NCBI RefSeq assembly: GCF_001183985.1
Contig: NZ_LFZW01000001.1
Location: forward strand, 832,333 to 896,332
DNA: 64,000 bases
From: Peribacillus loiseleuriae
Lineage (GTDB): Bacteria; Bacillota; Bacilli; Bacillales; DSM-1321
Direction of reading: 5' to 3'
The translations under genes were made by a program, and so were the position numbers. The notes under the pieces are model-generated. The model searched no databases, was not told where the DNA came from, and saw only the letters and a program-made list of their open reading frames with translations. Of this stretch, positions 4,548-21,558 are shown in pieces. How positions within the stretch are numbered: position 1 is the first letter of the stretch; each line of letters starts with the position of its first letter.

Positions 4548-5900
4548 TTGGAAAAGACGAAACTGACAGGTCGAATTGTAACACCGAATGATTCTGATTA
4601 TGAGCAAGCGAGAATAAATCTGAATTTAAGTATACCTAAGTTTCCAAGGGTAATCGTTTTTTGTCAAAATGTTCAAGATGTAGTGAATGCATTAAAATGG
4701 GCGAGAGAGAATCGTGTCCCTTTCCGTTTGAGAAGCGGTCGCCATAGTTTTGAAAATTTTTCTTTAGTGAACAGAGGCCTGATTATTGATGTAAGTGAAA
4801 TGAATCAAATAATATGTAATCGCCAAAGCTTAACCGCGAAGATTGAGGCAGGTGCTGGATTAGGGAAAGTATATCAAGAATTATGGAAATACGGAGTCAC
4901 CATTCCGGCTGGAACATCCGTCAATACGGGAATTGTCGGCCTCACGCTTGGCGGTGGAATTGGTTTATTAACAAGATTATTTGGACTGACTTGTGATAAT
5001 CTTCTTGAACTTGAAATGGTTAAAGCATCTTCCAATAGAGATGCGGAAGTTATTAAAGCTAATAAATATGAAAATAGCGATTTATTTTGGGCTTCCCGTG
5101 GTGGTGGTGGCGGGAACTTTGGCATTGTCACGTCCTTAACATTTAGGGTACATCCAATCTCAGACGTATCAATTTTCTCGATTACATGGGGATGGGAGGA
5201 TTTTGAGGAGGTCTTTAACGTATGGCAGAATTGGGCACCATTTGCGAATAAACGCCTTACTTCTACTATTGAATTAAGAGCGAAGGAAGTAAACAGAATT
5301 GAAGTACTTGGGGAATTTGTTGGCCCTATTGCCAAGTTAAAACAGCTAATTCAGCCGTTATTAAAAGCCGGCAGTCCCGTACATCAAAGAATAAAAGAGG
5401 TGCCGTATATTGATACGGTTCAATTTTTTGATTCTCCAAGCGGAGACCGTCCAACCAATTTTAAGAGATCCGGTTCGTTTATAGAAGAACCACTTCCTAG
5501 AGAAGCCATTCTAAAGATGAAACAATTCTTGGCCAGAGCACCTAATGAAAATGCAGCCATATGGCATCAATCACTGGGGGGGGCAGTGGGGCGACTTGGT
5601 CCTAAAGATACAGCCTACTATTACCGAGAAGCCATTATTGCTCAGGAGTATATTTCTTCTTGGAATTCCACTAGTGAGGAACGGCAAAACATTCATTGGA
5701 TTGAAAGTCTAAGGAGGGGGCTATCACAGAATACAATGGGCGATTATGTGAACTGGCCGGATATTTATATCAAAGAATGGCCAAACGCCTACTATGGAGA
5801 AAATGCCAACCAGCTTAGAAAAGTTAAAACCGTTTATGATCCGTATAACGTATTTACATTTCCTCAAAGTATCCCTCCCTTCAATAAACGAATATTTTAA
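4548..5900 (+). CDS. FAD-binding oxidoreductase, berberine-bridge type (YgaK-like)
   Basis: This is a predicted FAD-linked oxidase of the PCMH/BBE family. The N-terminal FAD domain carries RLRSGRHSFEN, where His66 is the expected covalent FAD ligand, followed by the GLTLGGGIGLLTRLFGLTCDN segment across about residues 137-157 and the usual SRGGGGGNFGIV block. The C-terminal tail, YYGENANQLRKVKTVYDP followed by NVFTFPQSI, is the typical BBE domain. At 450 aa the length is normal and resembles B. subtilis YgaK. The TTG start is supported by AGAAAGGGG. The position that carries a second flavin-linking Cys in bicovalent members reads AGTSVNTG, so attachment is probably by His only. The substrate is unknown; many relatives oxidise sugars or alkaloids. 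Confidence 0.9.
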   Translation: MEKTKLTGRIVTPNDSDYEQARINLNLSIPKFPRVIVFCQNVQDVVNALKWARENRVPFRLRSGRHSFENFSLVNRGLIIDVSEMNQIICNRQSLTAKIEAGAGLGKVYQELWKYGVTIPAGTSVNTGIVGLTLGGGIGLLTRLFGLTCDNLLELEMVKASSNRDAEVIKANKYENSDLFWASRGGGGGNFGIVTSLTFRVHPISDVSIFSITWGWEDFEEVFNVWQNWAPFANKRLTSTIELRAKEVNRIEVLGEFVGPIAKLKQLIQPLLKAGSPVHQRIKEVPYIDTVQFFDSPSGDRPTNFKRSGSFIEEPLPREAILKMKQFLARAPNENAAIWHQSLGGAVGRLGPKDTAYYYREAIIAQEYISSWNSTSEERQNIHWIESLRRGLSQNTMGDYVNWPDIYIKEWPNAYYGENANQLRKVKTVYDPYNVFTFPQSIPPFNKRIF

Positions 5901-6121
5901 TAACGAAAGGAAATGACTCTGAAGGCAATGCTTAACGAGTCATTTTCTTTTATCATTTTCCGAAGTATCCATCTAAACAACAGGGGATTGCGTGCCAATT
6001 CCAATGTTTTTAAGGGATTTAATATCTTTCGTAGTTGCAAGTACGTATATAACGGGTTTAGTTGATCAAGTTCATTTTCGGTAGGCAAATAATCATGATA
6101 AGCTTCGCCTGTTTCTTTCAC
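5897..6121 (-). pseudogene. Unidentified C-terminal gene remnant
   Basis: A reverse-strand frame reads plausibly as protein for about 60 residues, for example KETGEAYHDYLPTENELDQL and then LARNPLLFRWILRKMIKEND. It also stays open upstream of the GTG at 6121 to about 6154 (NRVVIVKETGEA), with no ribosome site. Its last 15 codons fall in the terminator hairpin of the convergent gene. Good coding texture, no start signal and an improvised end suggest the tail of a lost gene. I do not recognise the family. Confidence 0.3.
5908..5948. terminator. Hairpin terminator after FAD oxidoreductase
   Basis: GAAATGACTC pairs with GAGTCATTTTC and is followed by TTTT. The symmetry allows it to work in both directions. 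Confidence 0.75.
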
Positions 6122-6250
6122 GATAACAACTCTATTTGTAAATGTTTTGTTAATCTATGATTCTGTTGGAGGATTTTCCTATAAGTTAAAGAAATCATAG
6201 CAGTACACAATACAAGCTTCTAATGGAGAAAACAAGTAGGAGGATATACT

Positions 6251-7195
6251 TTGATATCAAAAGTAGCAGTTCGTACCCCCTTTATAATGAATATGTGGGA
6301 GCGTCACCCTAAAGTTTGGAGATTTTTGATTGACTTGGGGATTTACCTTAAATTTAAAACATTAAACATTGATAAAATTCCAAACAAAATCGTATTACCT
6401 TCGACCAATGTACTATATGTTAATTCAGAGGAAAATCGTGGTAGAGCGCTATTAATTAGCAATGGAATCACACAAAAGCGGCTCTCCTATTTTTGGAGCA
6501 CATCTGTAAAAGAGTTTTCACCAGATTTGATCATAGACGTAGGAGTAAACTATGGTGAATGTCTTTTTTCTACAACCTATTCAGATCGAACAATTATATA
6601 TGGAATCGAGGCAAATCACCATCTAATTCAATACATTATTAAGTCCAGAGAGGTTCATCCGAATAAAACCCAAATCACGATTATCAATGCCTTTGCATCA
6701 GACAAAGACGACGAACAGAAAGAATTCTTTATCGATAAACATTGGTCGGGGACATCTTCTGCTTCCTATATGCCTTCTCACAATATGATTGAAAAGGTAC
6801 CAGTTCGAACCATCACGATTGATTCAATCATTAAGAAAGACTTAACTAACGGAACCGTTCTATTTAAAGTAGATGTAGAAGGGTATGAAGCATTCGTCTT
6901 AAAAGGAATGTTCGAGTTATTCGAGAGATGTGAATCTGCGATTGGTTTTATTGAATTTAATAGTGAATATATTGAAAAATCAGGAATAAAAATAGAGGCG
7001 TTTTTTTCTTTTTTGCAAAAGTACTTTACGATTTACATGTATATAGAAGATGATATCTTAGTTAAAGCTGACGATGTTCATTATGAAGATTTAAAAATGA
7101 TTTTTGGAACGGACTATATTCATACAGATTTACTAGTTGTAACAGATGAAGAGAACATGGGAGTATTTAATTTCGATATACAAGCTAAGGCCTAA
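6251..7195 (+). CDS. FkbM family SAM-dependent methyltransferase
   Basis: This is a predicted O-methyltransferase of the FkbM type, often acting on glycans or polyketides. After an N-terminal region of about 90 residues with no recognised domain, SAM motif I reads DLIIDVGVNYGE. The acidic end of strand 2 is IYGIEAN, and the characteristic FkbM core FKVDVEGYEAFVLKG lies near residue 210. A length of 314 aa is usual. The TTG start has GTAGGAGGA 6-8 bases upstream. The neighbours give no pathway, as no glycan cluster surrounds it, so the acceptor is unknown. Confidence 0.88.
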   Translation: MISKVAVRTPFIMNMWERHPKVWRFLIDLGIYLKFKTLNIDKIPNKIVLPSTNVLYVNSEENRGRALLISNGITQKRLSYFWSTSVKEFSPDLIIDVGVNYGECLFSTTYSDRTIIYGIEANHHLIQYIIKSREVHPNKTQITIINAFASDKDDEQKEFFIDKHWSGTSSASYMPSHNMIEKVPVRTITIDSIIKKDLTNGTVLFKVDVEGYEAFVLKGMFELFERCESAIGFIEFNSEYIEKSGIKIEAFFSFLQKYFTIYMYIEDDILVKADDVHYEDLKMIFGTDYIHTDLLVVTDEENMGVFNFDIQAKA

Positions 7196-7197
7196 AA

Positions 7198-7247
7198 AAT
7201 AGTGAGAAGAAGCCCATTCATTCAGGATGGACTTCTTCTCACTATTT
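7198..7247. terminator. Strong bidirectional terminator
   Basis: AATAGTGAGAAGAAGCCC pairs with GGACTTCTTCTCACTATT, a stem of about 17 base pairs. It lies 3 bases after the methyltransferase stop. AT-runs on both sides would let it also terminate leftward transcription. Confidence 0.85.
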
Positions 7248-7425
7248 GATTTGTCATAAGCACTTGCGGCTAATTTACCTCGGTTTAACAGCGCCTGTAA
7301 ATCCCTGATTGGTGAGATGCACAGACGTTGCCATAGAATTAGTCTGTAATTCATTGAATTTTAGTTTGCAGTATCGCTTTATCGAATAACTTCCAAGTTG
7401 ATTTAAGGACTGAACGGCTTGTTTC

Positions 7426-8733
7426 CTATACCATTTTTGTAAAGTGAGTGTCTTGAGTCATACGATCGCTCATTGAAGAGACTGGTAGGAGAATAGAGAA
7501 ACAGGTTCCTTTCCCATGCTCGCTAGTCACATGAATGTTCCCATTCATCCCTTTAATAATACTAAATGAAACCATCATTCCAAGTCCCGTTCCTTTTTCC
7601 TTTGTTGTAAAATAAGGTTCCCCAAGACGATCGATTTGTTCTTGTGTCATCCCTGTTCCTTCATCCTGAATATTAATATGGATCGTGGTACCTTCATAGT
7701 TTAAATGGATTTTAATTTCTCCGTGATTTGACATCGACTCAATTCCATTTTTCATGATATTAATCAAGCATTGTTGGAATTTTTTTCTGTCCCCTTTAGC
7801 AACATAATAATGATGATCATCTACTAAAGATAACTTCACCTGTATTCCATTCATATTGGCTAAGGGGATAATGACATTGACGGCATGCTGAATTTCCTCA
7901 TTAATATTAATATTTTCTTCTATATCGAATGCTGGTTTGGCAAAAGTTAAATAATCGTTAATCACTTCTGTAGCACGATCCAATTCTTGTAACGCAATAA
8001 TTGCATACTCTTTTCTCGCTTGTGTGGCTTCACCTTCAGATAACATTTGGATAAATCCTCGGCTGACAGTAAGTGGATTTCTGACTTCATGAGAGATGCT
8101 TGCAGCAAGATGGCTTACAATTTGTAATTTTTCTGCTTTCACTAACTTTTGTAGCACCTGAAAATTTGTTTGGATCACTTCCCAAAGAAGAGTGGAAATG
8201 GATATGCCGATGATATGAATGGCGACATACTTCGTCCAAAACAAGTTATCTAAACTAGCGCCAAATATATGTATTGAAACAAATAATGAACTAAATAAGG
8301 CAAAAATAATTAACGCTAAACTTAACGCTACTTTTTGTTTAATGTTCATTTGTAAATAGTATTTAGATAAGAAGAATACGAATACACCGATAAAGGTGAA
8401 TGTGATTGCTGTCACATAAAAACCCACATCATTACCTTGAAAATAGCGGATGATTAGAACTAATAACAATTGAAGAAAACCTAAGCGAAATCCTCCGATT
8501 AAACCACCTAAAATAAAGGGAATCCAGCGAAGGTCCCAGACGAAATTTTTGTCAAGAGCAACAGGAATTAGCATACATAGGATAAGAGAGATTACTGGAA
8601 AAATACCAATAACCCAGCCTTTTATTTCTTCTAATCGATACGCATATTTAATCAAATAAACCATTTGTACTAAAAATAGAGAAAGAAGAATAAATAAAAA
8701 GTTGATAAGTAAATCCTTCGTCAAAAGATCCAT
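7426..8733 (-). CDS. KinB-like membrane sensor histidine kinase
   Basis: The N-terminal half (residues 1-190) holds six hydrophobic helices with the GGLIGGFRLGFLQ pattern of 5TM-5TMR_LYT-type sensors. The HisKA H-box ASISHEVRNPLTVSRGF contains the phospho-accepting His215. The HATPase part has the N-box NIMKNGIESM, the G1 box DEGTGM and the G2 box GTGLGM. Topology, the 435 aa length and the H-box match B. subtilis KinB, a phosphorelay kinase for Spo0F. The gene stands alone with no response regulator beside it, as expected for sporulation kinases. Assignment to the phosphorelay is inference; the kinase fold is plain. Confidence 0.9.
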   Translation of the reverse strand: MDLLTKDLLINFLFILLSLFLVQMVYLIKYAYRLEEIKGWVIGIFPVISLILCMLIPVALDKNFVWDLRWIPFILGGLIGGFRLGFLQLLLVLIIRYFQGNDVGFYVTAITFTFIGVFVFFLSKYYLQMNIKQKVALSLALIIFALFSSLFVSIHIFGASLDNLFWTKYVAIHIIGISISTLLWEVIQTNFQVLQKLVKAEKLQIVSHLAASISHEVRNPLTVSRGFIQMLSEGEATQARKEYAIIALQELDRATEVINDYLTFAKPAFDIEENININEEIQHAVNVIIPLANMNGIQVKLSLVDDHHYYVAKGDRKKFQQCLINIMKNGIESMSNHGEIKIHLNYEGTTIHINIQDEGTGMTQEQIDRLGEPYFTTKEKGTGLGMMVSFSIIKGMNGNIHVTSEHGKGTCFSILLPVSSMSDRMTQDTHFTKMV

Positions 8734-9284: not shown

Positions 9285-10448
9285 TTAGAATAGATTGAGT
9301 TTTCCAATCCGATCAACGGCCTTCACCAACAACTCTTCATCCACCAATAAACCGACTCGGATATAGCCTTCACCATATTCCCCAAAACCTCTTCCAGCAG
9401 CTACCGCTACATCCGCTTTCTCAAGCAAATAATCGGCGAAAGCCTCACTTGTAAAACCGTTAGGAACAGGCAACCAAGCGAAGAATGATCCAGTCGGCGC
9501 TTCGACTTTCCAGCCAATATTTTGGCATGCCGCAATAAAAGCATTTCGACGTTGTTCATAACGGATTACGAGGTCTTCGACACATTGCTGATTATCTGTA
9601 AGCGCTGCAACTGCGGCCTTTTGCACAGCAGGAAATAGACTGACGTATAAATGATCCTGGATAAGGTTTAAAGCTTCGATTATTTTGGGGTTCCCGACTG
9701 CAAAGCCAACACGCCAACCAGCCATATTGTAGGTTTTCGATAAGGTATACATTTCCACACCAACGTCTTTTGCACCGTCAACTTCAAGAAAGCTTACTGG
9801 TTTTTTTTCATCAAAACCGATGGCGCCATAGGCAAAATCATGCAAAATCGTAATGGAATGTTTTTTCGCAAAAGCAACCGTTTCTTCGAAGAAAGTCCGA
9901 TCTACTGTAGCTCCAGTCGGATTGTTCGGATAGTTAAGATACATTAATTTTGTTGCTTCCCTTTGTTTTAGCGGTATAGCGTTGAAATCAGGTAAAAAGT
10001 GATTTTCAGCTTTAAGCGGGAAGGTCTGATACTCAACGTTCGCCAATACTGCACCAGATAAATAATCCGGGTAACCTGGATCAGGTAATAACATGAGTTC
10101 ACCTTCATTTAACAAGCACATCGGCAACTCAACTAAACCGGTTTTCGTCCCGAATAAAATAGCTACTTCAGTCTCTGGGTTGATATCTACGCCATATTGT
10201 TTTTTATAAAATTCGCTAGCAGCGATCTTCAACTCATTAAGTCCGCGAAACGGAGAATATTTGTGAGTTTGAGGGTCCTCTGCCGCAGTTTGCAGTGCTT
10301 TGATGATGTGAGGTGGTGTCGGCTGATCTGGGTTGCCTTGCCCTAAATTGATGACATCCCGTCCTTCAGCAATTGCTTTGCCTACCTTTTCAACAAGACT
10401 TGCAAAAAATTGTACTGGTAATTTTTTTAATCGTTCTGAATATTCCAT
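9285..10448 (-). CDS. mtnE: Aminotransferase of methionine salvage (MtnE)
   Basis: This PLP-dependent fold-type I aminotransferase makes methionine from 4-methylthio-2-oxobutyrate in the last step of the methylthioadenosine salvage cycle. It has PNNPTG, HDFAYGA and the PLP lysine Lys238 in YTLSKTYNMAGWRVGF. Conservation with B. subtilis MtnE runs over the whole length, from LPxQFFASLV and INLGQGNPDQPTP to GFGEYGEGYxRVGLL and RIGKLNLF. ATG at 10448 is preferred over an upstream GTG because AAGGTGG lies 5 bases ahead. It is divergent from mtnU with 81 bases between them, the same pairing seen in Bacillus. The rest of the salvage genes are not in this window. Confidence 0.93.
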   Translation of the reverse strand: MEYSERLKKLPVQFFASLVEKVGKAIAEGRDVINLGQGNPDQPTPPHIIKALQTAAEDPQTHKYSPFRGLNELKIAASEFYKKQYGVDINPETEVAILFGTKTGLVELPMCLLNEGELMLLPDPGYPDYLSGAVLANVEYQTFPLKAENHFLPDFNAIPLKQREATKLMYLNYPNNPTGATVDRTFFEETVAFAKKHSITILHDFAYGAIGFDEKKPVSFLEVDGAKDVGVEMYTLSKTYNMAGWRVGFAVGNPKIIEALNLIQDHLYVSLFPAVQKAAVAALTDNQQCVEDLVIRYEQRRNAFIAACQNIGWKVEAPTGSFFAWLPVPNGFTSEAFADYLLEKADVAVAAGRGFGEYGEGYIRVGLLVDEELLVKAVDRIGKLNLF

Positions 10449-10470
10449 GTGAACCACCTTTATGAAAGAG

Positions 10471-10529: not shown

Positions 10530-11312
10530 ATGAAGGTTGCTTGTGTGCAAATGGATATCGCTTTTGGTGAGCCAGGTAAAAATTTTACAGCGATTGAAAA
10601 ATACATTGAAGAAGCGGCAAATGCACAAGTAGATGTTATTGTTTTTCCAGAAATGTGGAATACGGGCTACGCTCTCGATCAACTTGATAGACTAGCTGAT
10701 CGAGAGGGAAGTATGGCAAGAAAGATGTTGGCTCATCTTGCCAAAAAACATCAAGTAAATATTGTAGGTGGTTCAGTAGCAACGAAAAGGGGAGGTAAAT
10801 TCTTTAACACAATGTATATCGTAGACAGAACGGGGAAAATAGTCGCTGCCTACGATAAAGCCCATCTGTTCAAGTTGATGGATGAGCATGTATATTTGAA
10901 CGAAGGACAAAGCATGAATGTATTCGAAATGGATGGTATTACCTGTGGCGGGGTCATCTGTTATGATGTACGTTTTCCCGAATGGATTCGTACACATACT
11001 TTAAATGGAGCTAAGATTATGTTTATACCGGCTGAGTGGCCAAAGCAACGGATCGACCATTGGCAATTATTATTGCAAGCTCGGGCGATTGAAAATCAAT
11101 GTTTTATCGTGGCTGTCAACCGCGTCGGCAAGGACCCAAATAATGAATTTAATGGTCATTCCATGGTCATTGCACCTTGGGGTGAGCTACTTATTAGCAA
11201 TCAAACAGAGGAAGGGATCTTGTACGCGGAACTTGATTTAGAGGAAGTCGATCGGGTGCGGAAGACGATTCCAGTTTATCAAGACAGGCGGACGGATTTA
11301 TACGAATCATAA
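10530..11312 (+). CDS. mtnU: Nitrilase-family amidohydrolase (MtnU-like)
   Basis: This carbon-nitrogen hydrolase has the complete catalytic triad Glu41 (VFPEMW), Lys110 (YDKAHLF) and Cys144 (VICYDVRFP). At 260 aa it matches B. subtilis MtnU (YkrU). Such enzymes act as omega-amidases that remove 2-oxoglutaramate formed when MtnE uses glutamine as amino donor; here that role is inferred from the divergent mtnE next door. AGAGGTGG sits 7 bases before the ATG. It is followed at about 110 bases by a SAM riboswitch that does not control it. Confidence 0.9.
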   Translation: MKVACVQMDIAFGEPGKNFTAIEKYIEEAANAQVDVIVFPEMWNTGYALDQLDRLADREGSMARKMLAHLAKKHQVNIVGGSVATKRGGKFFNTMYIVDRTGKIVAAYDKAHLFKLMDEHVYLNEGQSMNVFEMDGITCGGVICYDVRFPEWIRTHTLNGAKIMFIPAEWPKQRIDHWQLLLQARAIENQCFIVAVNRVGKDPNNEFNGHSMVIAPWGELLISNQTEEGILYAELDLEEVDRVRKTIPVYQDRRTDLYES

Positions 11313-11423
11313 GGGGGGAAAATGGGTACACTGCTAGAGTAGTAGTGTTTTATTATTTTTAAAAAATTGACAATAATAAGGTGTTTTTATAATATATTAA
11401 TTACATGAAATTTAACCATGATA

Positions 11424-11525
11424 CTTATCCAGAGCGACCGAGGGACTAGGCCCTATGACGTCCAGAAACCCCAAATATTAGGAAGGCGCCAATCCGGCAG
11501 AATGATCTTCATTCTGAAAGATAAG
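11424..11525 (+). promoter_or_regulatory. SAM-I (S-box) riboswitch
   Basis: The P1 stem is CTTATC with GATAAG. The internal blocks follow the S-box order: AGAGCGACCGAGGGACTAGG, CCCTATGACGTCCAGAAACC, GGAAGGCGCCAATCC, GGCAGAATG and CTGAAAGATAAG. A terminator hairpin follows at 11546-11578, the layout of a SAM-off switch. The only reading frame after it is a 15-codon stub, so the switch is orphaned. Confidence 0.92.
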
Positions 11526-11545
11526 TCGAGATTCTTTCGTATTTC

Positions 11546-11578
11546 GATGCTCCTTTCAGTTGAAGGGAGCATTTTTCT
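11546..11578 (+). terminator. Riboswitch expression-platform terminator
   Basis: GATGCTCCTTT pairs with AAGGGAGCAT, followed by TTTTT. It lies 20 bases after the S-box P1 stem. Confidence 0.85.
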
Positions 11579-11640
11579 GTAGGATGAAAAGTCTATCTTT
11601 TTTTAATGACTTGTTAATTTGGAGAAATATGAGGAATCGT

Positions 11641-11688
11641 ATGATCAAAATTCGTAATCTTTCTAAGATATACAAAAAGAAAAAGTAG
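11641..11688 (+). pseudogene. Stub of a MetN-like ABC ATPase
   Basis: After the riboswitch, GAGGA and ATG open the peptide MIKIRNLSKIYKKKK, which then hits TAG. This is the usual first strand of ABC ATPases and closely fits the MetN start (M-I-x-x-x-x-V/L-S-K-x-Y/F). MetNIQ methionine importers are classic S-box targets. No Walker A or later part exists downstream in any frame, so most of the gene and any metI or metQ have been lost. The identity rests on 15 residues plus the riboswitch. Confidence 0.55.
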
Positions 11689-12651
11689 TTGTACTTCGGA
11701 TAAAGGTTTGATTTAACAGAAGTATAAAAGAATACCTAAATAACGGTAGTGTATAAAAAAGATTCACTTCTAAGTTTTATTATTAACTATTCTTATGTAG
11801 CTATACCAATAAACTATTGTAAGTGCGCTAATAAATGAACAAGATAAGAGGCTAGGTGGTGGTTCGAAATTTGAATCGTCCTTAGCTTCTGTTATGCTAT
11901 AGCTTCGTTTAAGATAGCTTATGAACAAGACCTGTGACCTTCGAATTAAATCTACAGATCATCCTCTTTCGGCCGTATGTTCTTTTTTTCGCCAATTACT
12001 CTTTCCACAATCTCTCGCGAAACCCTTCATGAGGCCAGCAAGATTGTGGCTTTTTTTGTTTTGTAGCCTGAAAGCCGTTTTAATCGCTGAAGTTTCAAAA
12101 TATAAAAGCTCTTCCTGTGTTTGAAGTGTGCGCTGTATCTGCTATAAAGCTTGTCCACAAAAGACCCCACTGAGTTGTGTATCAAGCAAAATTGTATAAA
12201 CCCAGCCAGTCTGCCAAAAGTGATTATTAAACGTAAAGTGGAATTTGTGTATGTAACGAATGCGGAAAGTTGTTAACCCAATGAACTAATAGCTATAGTT
12301 CGTCCAATCGAATATTTTATGCAAATTGCTTATTGAAATTTGTCATACATTCCTTAGTATATTAACCCCCAAATTGCTAACGATAACTACCTGTAAGATA
12401 TTTAACCTTCATGTTGATTCGATTTGTTCATTGGCTAGAATGTTTAACCAGTTTAGGAGATTATTTCTACCTGTATTTTCTTACTATTGGATAAAAAGGA
12501 ATAAATTAGGATTTTGGGCCTGTTTAAAAAACATTGAACTGGTGGAGGCTATGGCACATATGGAGCAGACTTTCGATCCTACATAAAAGTGTATAGTTAT
12601 GAAAAAAGTCTCCATATTCAAAACAATATCATAGTAAAAGGGGTATATAAT
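11689..12651. other. Gene-poor stretch with one strong hairpin
   Basis: No supported protein gene was found. Frames at 11921-12124 and 12326-12586 lack ribosome sites and protein-like composition. The one clear structure is a terminator-like hairpin at 12005-12057, listed separately, which implies a rightward transcript, possibly a small RNA starting around 11850-11930. The region may be the eroded remains of the operon once controlled by the SAM riboswitch. Confidence 0.45.
12005..12057 (+). terminator. Long-loop terminator of an unidentified transcript
   Basis: CCACAATCT pairs with AGATTGTGG and is followed by CTTTTTTT. The 27-base loop has a small inner stem. No coding gene lies upstream to use it. 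Confidence 0.6.
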
Positions 12652-12873
12652 ATGGCAGAAGAAAAAAATAATAGTAAGAACCAGGCATCTAACATTAAAA
12701 AAGTGAACGCTGGGGACATGATCGAAATAAAAAGTGGCCTCGAACAAGGGAAGAAAGGGAAAGTAGTAATGGTGCGGGAAAACTCTGTTATTGTGGAAAT
12801 TGGAAGAAATACAAAAAAGGACGAACCAATAAATACTGTGGTAAATCATAAAAATTATAAACTAATTAAGTAA
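12652..12873 (+). CDS. DUF2187 family protein (YkvS-like, KOW-like)
   Basis: This 73-residue basic protein has a charged, Asn/Lys-rich N-terminus and one KOW-like beta module, GDMIEIKSGLEQGKKGKVV, followed by SVIVEIG and VVNHKNYKLI. The pattern matches B. subtilis YkvS (DUF2187), small proteins of unknown function common in Bacillus. ATG at 12652 is preferred because AAAAGGGG lies 8-9 bases ahead. A nucleic-acid-binding role is only suggested by the KOW resemblance. A strong terminator follows. Confidence 0.85.
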   Translation: MAEEKNNSKNQASNIKKVNAGDMIEIKSGLEQGKKGKVVMVRENSVIVEIGRNTKKDEPINTVVNHKNYKLIK

Positions 12874-20053: not shown

Positions 20054-20173
20054 GTAGGTGACAGTCTCCTCCCAAAGTGCTGGACAAGGAGCTAAATCTA
20101 ATTAGTTGAGATAGAAAAGCTTATAAGAATTGTGTTTTAGATTGAGGGATAACCAATTAAGAAAAGAATTAGA

Positions 20174-20208
20174 AGAAGGCACTAGCGTACAAGCATGTGC
20201 CTTTTCCT
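20174..20208. terminator. Hairpin between convergent genes
   Basis: AAGGCAC pairs with GTGCCTTTT near the end of the leftward lipoprotein gene. Confidence 0.55.
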
Positions 20209-21253: not shown

Positions 21254-21489
21254 ATGCTCTCCATTCTATTATGTAATTCAACAGCAAATCAAATTCTACC
21301 AAATGATCAAGGTTTTGTCTTAAATTTCTGAGATGTTTGAGTGTATGTAAAGGCAGAGTATACTTATGAAAAAAGAAGTTCTGATACAAGTGGATGTACC
21401 CAAATATGCATTTTCTAATTTTAGTTTGAAGATCTACTGATTTTAGTCTAAAATGAACTGATGTAAATATAAATCCGTTTCATTACGGT

Positions 21490-21524
21490 AGAGGTTTCTA
21501 GCTACCCTCTCTAAAAAACTAAGG
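21490..21524 (+). promoter_or_regulatory. preQ1-I riboswitch
   Basis: AGAGGTTTCTAGCTACCCTC followed by TCTAAAAAACTAAGG carries the conserved loop CTAGCTACCCTCT and the A-rich tail with CTAA of preQ1 class I aptamers. It lies just upstream of queC, its standard target, and is followed directly by a terminator hairpin, so preQ1 should turn the operon off. Confidence 0.92.
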
Positions 21525-21558
21525 AAAACAGTACTGCTTTCTTAGTAGTGCTGTTTTT
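21525..21558 (+). terminator. preQ1 riboswitch terminator
   Basis: AAACAGTACTGCT pairs with AGTAGTGCTGTTTTT, directly adjoining the aptamer. Confidence 0.85.

Follow-up and report, generated by a model that had tools for sequence, protein, structure and literature searches.

In SAM-I (S-box) riboswitches, U57 pairs with the adenine of SAM. The passages of PMC3764141 that bear on this pocket describe C44 and U57 as both highly conserved in SAM-I, and they assign recognition of the methionine part of SAM to the G11-C44-G58 triple. Riboswitches adjoining pseudogenes have also been reported, and are termed fortuitous in the excerpts of PMC9943018. Among the papers listed by a search of one open-access literature library, none, judged by titles and the opening lines of abstracts, concerned a decayed riboswitch. 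Here we describe an S-box leader in the window, i.e. the whole stretch of 64,000 nt of Peribacillus loiseleuriae DNA that was analyzed. With a probability of about 0.87, this leader is the 5′ remnant of a metNPQ operon and a non-functional relic with a decaying aptamer.

DNA searches were run across 36 genomes of the genus, its own genome included, and relatives were compared using one genome per species. A close relative, G044, was matched to Peribacillus huizhouensis DSM 105481 (NZ_JACJHX010000014.1), with MetN, MetP and MetQ 100% identical. Another, G009, was matched to NZ_LMVB01000002.1, filed as Paenibacillus sp. FJAT-29882. Upstream of the leader, the window has an aminotransferase gene on the minus strand (9285-10457), which we take to be mtnE (NF005977 transaminase, over the cut-off; same order in G019 and G044). 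It is followed on the plus strand by a carbon-nitrogen hydrolase gene (10530-11312; PF00795), presumably mtnU, whose protein is 91% identical to that of G044 (L080) and 93% to that of G009 (L085). Promoter-like hexamers, recognized by consensus match, lie at 11367-11393 on the plus strand: TTGACA and TATAAT are perfect at a spacing of 15 nt, or TTGACA and TAATAT match at 10 of 12 positions at 17 nt. The same hexamers and spacing occur in G044, although such sites are common in this AT-rich region (seven observed vs 5.3 expected from shuffling).

The S-box match at 11422-11527 (plus strand) scored 60 bits with the RF00162 covariance model (cut-off 44.4, E = 2.1e-11), and was the sole SAM riboswitch that Rfam found in the window. 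The score and the synteny described below rule out a chance match. A PreQ1 riboswitch was also matched at 21485-21528 (41 vs a cut-off of 39 bits), and it is found in G044 as well (L079 17723-17766). Within the leader, CTGAAAG (11514-11520) and CTTTCAG (11553-11559) are complementary and might pair as an antiterminator (11514-11559, plus strand); both segments are retained in G044. The expression platform has an intrinsic terminator (11546-11577, plus strand), as a reading made earlier from the sequence without database searches (hereafter the sequence-only reading) had proposed. Its hairpin (11546-11573) has a folding energy of -17.7 kcal/mol (z = -4.96; 0 of 200 shuffles as stable). The MetN-like start followed by a stop that the same reading noticed was also borne out. 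It is a 15-codon ORF, MIKIRNLSKIYKKKK, on the plus strand (11641-11688), running from the ATG at 11641 to the TAG at 11686-11688, and the G044 alignment resolves it into 14 metN codons, a junction codon and the stop. The ABC ATPase and NIL domains of MetN are absent from this 14-codon stub.

The sequence-only reading suggested that a methionine importer had been lost while its riboswitch remained, and proposed a comparison with the syntenic locus in relatives. That comparison strongly supports the loss. In the G044 locus (L079), the same neighbors flank mtnU, the promoter-like hexamers, an S-box, metN (5662-6675), metP (6665-7336) and metQ (7512-8348). The best NCBIfam models for the three proteins were MetN, MetI and MetQ, all under the curated cut-offs; Pfam found ABC_tran and NIL, BPD_transp_1 and NlpA lipoprotein domains, respectively, over the cut-off. 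Window positions 11350-11684 are collinear with L079 up to position 5705. The next bases, 11685-11723 (plus strand), once flanked metQ on its 3′ side and now directly follow the metN stub, with 36 of 39 positions identical to L079 8405-8443; reading the bases from 11685 as a frame-shifted metN is therefore wrong. At the junction 11684/11685, L079 5706-8404 is missing, a segment of 2,699 bp that begins at metN codon 15 and extends 56 bp beyond the metQ stop. The alignment thus shows the window to be the G044 locus minus one 2,699-bp segment, and it is from this collinearity that a former metNPQ arrangement in the window is deduced. A single deletion accounts for the present structure.

This deletion perhaps occurred between short imperfect direct repeats. 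In G044, both deletion ends are surrounded by an imperfect direct repeat roughly 20 nt long; when up to 5,000 flank pairs were drawn at random from the same region, 20 scored as high. The repeats only suggest this route, since simple recombination between the G044 repeats would not give the junction now seen. Just beyond the former metQ flank, 86 bp of the window (11724-11809) have no counterpart in G044, where the stretches on either side are adjacent.

The sequence-only reading had called the S-box aptamer complete. Its outline is indeed present, but P3 is lost, and substitutions have altered two of the ligand-contact positions. We searched with an S-box model among 115 sources (the window and 114 loci), of which 70, picked as carrying or neighboring S-boxes, were covered. 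Once duplicates were removed, the 74 matches gave 65 distinct sequences: the window S-box and 64 others. Among these 64, 52 columns were at least 85% conserved, and the window breaks two of them. At 11466 the window has A, where 63 of the 64 have C and one has T; at 11487 it has C, where all 64 have U. Mapped by the P3 pattern GCA-C / GUGC to the numbering of PDB 2GIS, these positions are C44 and U57, so that the conserved contact nucleotides of P3 have changed from C44 to A and from U57 to C. The P3 arm itself has a folding energy of only -0.9 kcal/mol in the window, with 159 of 200 shuffles as stable, vs -12.9 kcal/mol in G044, and the four-helix fold including P3 is not formed. The S-box score is likewise 60 bits in the window vs 85.7 bits for the G044 orthologue. 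At least three conserved columns were broken in 14 of the 65 distinct S-boxes (maximum 10), and L010, L014 and L018 of the same genome break at least three yet precede long frames. By the number of broken columns, then, the window S-box is not unusual; it is their positions that matter, and we infer that the leader no longer binds SAM.

Substitutions were polarized with seven outgroups under a 60% majority rule, with gaps left out. All seven aptamer substitutions that separate the window from G044 were assigned to the window branch (7:0), a small count (two-sided binomial P about 0.016) in which one of the seven is shared by one outgroup with the window. As a control, mtnU gave 27:26 for the window vs G044 (30 undecided) and 25:16 for the window vs G009 (27 undecided); given the latter count, the window lineage may be somewhat faster overall. 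We also considered the clustering of the aptamer changes in P3 as a sign of selection and rejected it, because 1270 of 20000 random placements were as tight or tighter. From 11497 to 11577, the window and G044 are identical, with a one-base indel at about 11578. This pattern fits a leader that was under selection until recently, in which the ligand pocket is now decaying first. The leader retained its promoter-like hexamers, P1, P4 and terminator; with nothing left to regulate, the aptamer probably lost selection, and P3 and the two SAM-contact positions have mutated.

The same genome contains at least 19 S-boxes, all over the cut-off, in a whole-genome search that scored 150 of 293 first-look candidates. 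The window S-box is the weakest at 60 bits, the others ranging from 70.3 to 99.8 bits. Of the 18 other loci, 16 have a frame of 100 aa or more whose start lies no farther than 700 nt from the aptamer (beyond 500 nt in L004, L005, L012 and L017); at L008 and L013, only frames of 63 and 64 aa follow. For the window S-box, the longest frame starting within 700 nt has 67 aa and begins 393 nt on, and no sulfur or methionine gene under its control lies downstream, metNPQ being deleted. Searching for an intact importer operon elsewhere, as the sequence-only reading had advised, we found two S-box metNPQ operons. Their MetN-type ATPases, at G000:C1:4349501 and 4541867, are 51% and 49% identical to G044 MetN, and each gene stands just behind an S-box and is followed by metP and metQ homologues. 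A third related cluster at 3296606 has a shorter ATPase (54% over residues 2-225, 224 residues). No close full-length orthologue of the lost metN was found in the genome, the best match being 51% vs 73% between G044 and G019. A move of the operon to another place in the genome was therefore ruled out: none of the remaining full-length MetN proteins exceeds 51% identity to the lost type. Judging from the scores, these proteins look like paralogues that G044 also has. The metNPQ operons that are still present probably explain why the loss could be tolerated.

Among 12 stretches examined in relatives, the order mtnU, S-box, metNPQ was found in one (G019). The S-box after mtnU precedes mtnK in five (G002, G011, G015, G021 and G023), four contain mtnU, and the search of these stretches detected no S-box (G005, G009, G014 and G018), and two have an S-box and metNPQ without mtnU (G003 and G032). 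The mtnK-preceding S-boxes lie in five genomes of the same genus (L047 2789-4183, L048 2617-4027, and likewise in L051, L055 and L056). We also observed two group I intron matches in L051 (2225-2804; G023), and, in L110 (846-1425; G019), two tandem S-boxes upstream of a metN, with a weak third match on the opposite strand. In 13 named loci, the mtnU, S-box, metNPQ order was present in four (Robertmurraya kyonggiensis, R. yapensis, an Alkalihalobacillus macyae MAG and Caldibacillus thermoamylovorans), and one (Amphibacillus marinus) had an S-box with metQ-metN-metP. No S-box was found in the other eight, one of which is the G009 locus itself; among these, L091 extends only about 400 bp past mtnU, and L083 and L084 have a tRNA there. 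From these samples, the metNPQ arrangement is widespread, not universal.

G009 lost the operon separately. Its mtnU has 91% DNA identity, and neither an S-box nor metN was found in the stretch that holds it. The 30-mer right after the mtnU stop agrees at 27 positions with the end of metQ in G044; its best matches elsewhere in L079 reached 16 (before 7400) and 19 (after 8400). This comparison shows that the G009 deletion took the promoter and riboswitch and left the last metQ codons. The metQ tail survives in G009 but not in the window, and the leader survives in the window but not in G009; neither deletion can derive from the other, and the two losses are therefore independent. Pairwise mtnU differences were 59/780 for G009 and G044, 68/777 for G009 and the window, and 83/780 for the window and G044.

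The relic is perhaps still transcribed; its probable product is an RNA of roughly 180 nt ending at the terminator, or a read-through of a few hundred bases, and such a leader RNA would have neither a SAM response nor a target. Most likely, the leader does nothing now. The identity of 11497-11577 and the retained promoter-like hexamers could instead reflect residual selection. We therefore weighed whether the leader persists as a small RNA, made constitutively from its own promoter, ending at about 11577 and acting in trans on mRNAs with no tie to SAM. The hexamers, the terminator and the identical stretch fit this, and SreA, a terminated SAM riboswitch acting in trans, offers a precedent in the portions of PMC8079631 describing it. 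However, terminator identity is equally expected after a recent deletion, the whole leader is gone in G009, and the aptamer changes, all on the window lineage, are not significantly clustered. We regard a retained small RNA as quite unlikely. Very unlikely, in our estimate, is the related idea that the leader, once freed of its operon, is turning into a constitutive, SAM-blind trans-acting RNA, its pocket lost and its promoter and terminator kept.

The DNA following the stub is gene-poor, as the sequence-only reading stated: the next gene with family support, encoding a DUF2187 protein, lies at 12652-12873 (plus strand), and the longest ORF in between has 86 aa (12326-12586). A hairpin downstream of the former metQ (11847-11890, plus strand) is conserved across three species, with z = -4.4 in the window, -6.6 in G044 and -4.7 in G009. 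It has a poor U tail and is absent from the terminator scan results, and it may be the old 3′ end of the operon. The transcript end that had been placed at 12005-12057 does contain a hairpin (12005-12049, plus strand; -15.4 kcal/mol, z = -2.03, 8 of 200 shuffles as stable), with a T run from 12051 that is better than that of the hairpin at 11847-11890. To call it the next transcript end is doubtful, considering the earlier, better supported hairpin of the three species. It also overlaps a decayed helix-turn-helix gene fragment on the minus strand (12022-12207; E = 7e-4, 38% identity). The gene also occurs in both G044 and G009 (88% identity, with one TAG included in the match), and only distant homologues (27% and 35%) were among the matches listed for its own genome. 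In both G044 and G009, a fuller copy of the helix-turn-helix gene is located downstream of mtnU at a distance of about 9-10 kb; the matching place in the window (about 20064-20203) has no such gene, and the piece sits some 8 kb away at 12022-12207.

A SAM switch still working in a new job, with read-through controlling an extended non-coding RNA or, about 1 kb farther on, the DUF2187 gene, would be favored by the deletion, which pulls downstream DNA about 2.7 kb nearer the promoter, and by the intact terminator and putative antiterminator sequences. However, the SAM-contact positions and P3 are altered, the conserved hairpin and a second terminator-like hairpin lie in between, and DUF2187 keeps an upstream region that is 74-75% similar in G044 and G009. 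We consider this highly improbable, and we found no positive support for a non-coding RNA now under the control of the switch: the SAM pocket has changed, and the aptamer changes are all on the window lineage. A new non-coding RNA ending at 12005-12049 is a weak candidate, since the hairpin there is weaker (z = -2.03) and overlaps the decayed helix-turn-helix fragment. Least probable of these readings is that the aptamer mutated first, leaving metNPQ permanently on or off until its later deletion: the sequence does not record the order and both changes are on the same lineage, but the intact loci (G044, G019 and outgroups) all have C44 and U57, and none of the 64 other S-boxes has both changed, which is weak evidence from few genomes.

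A decaying relic thus remains our preferred reading of the leader. It gives one locus in three states within one genus: intact in G044, with a decaying leader in the window, and independently erased in G009. For regulon prediction, it is relevant that a riboswitch scoring above the Rfam cut-off can, as is probable here, be dead. The locus also offers a small natural test of which parts of a riboswitch decay first. It reveals no new mechanism and is a well-resolved, ordinary genetic fossil.

Compared with SAM-I (RF00162), the leader is homologous by covariance score and synteny, sharing the outline of P1, P2 and P4, the terminator and the putative antiterminator; it differs in lacking a folding P3, in the substituted C44 and U57, and in having no gene downstream. 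As the contact nucleotides, P3 and the controlled gene all fail in this way, we did not class it as a functional member of SAM-I; by ancestry it is an S-box leader. With the S-box metNPQ operons of G044, G019, Robertmurraya and Caldibacillus, it shares the upstream neighbor, the leader and the first 14 metN codons, but the rest of metN and all of metP and metQ are missing. The riboswitches of PMC9943018, in the parts of that source describing them, are antisense to a gene, whereas the one in the window is sense to its deleted gene. SreA of Listeria is comparable, both being S-box leaders that have a terminator and belong to operons for methionine-type ABC transporters; SreA, as far as the cited portions of PMC8079631 describe it, retains its operon, whereas the window leader has lost its own.
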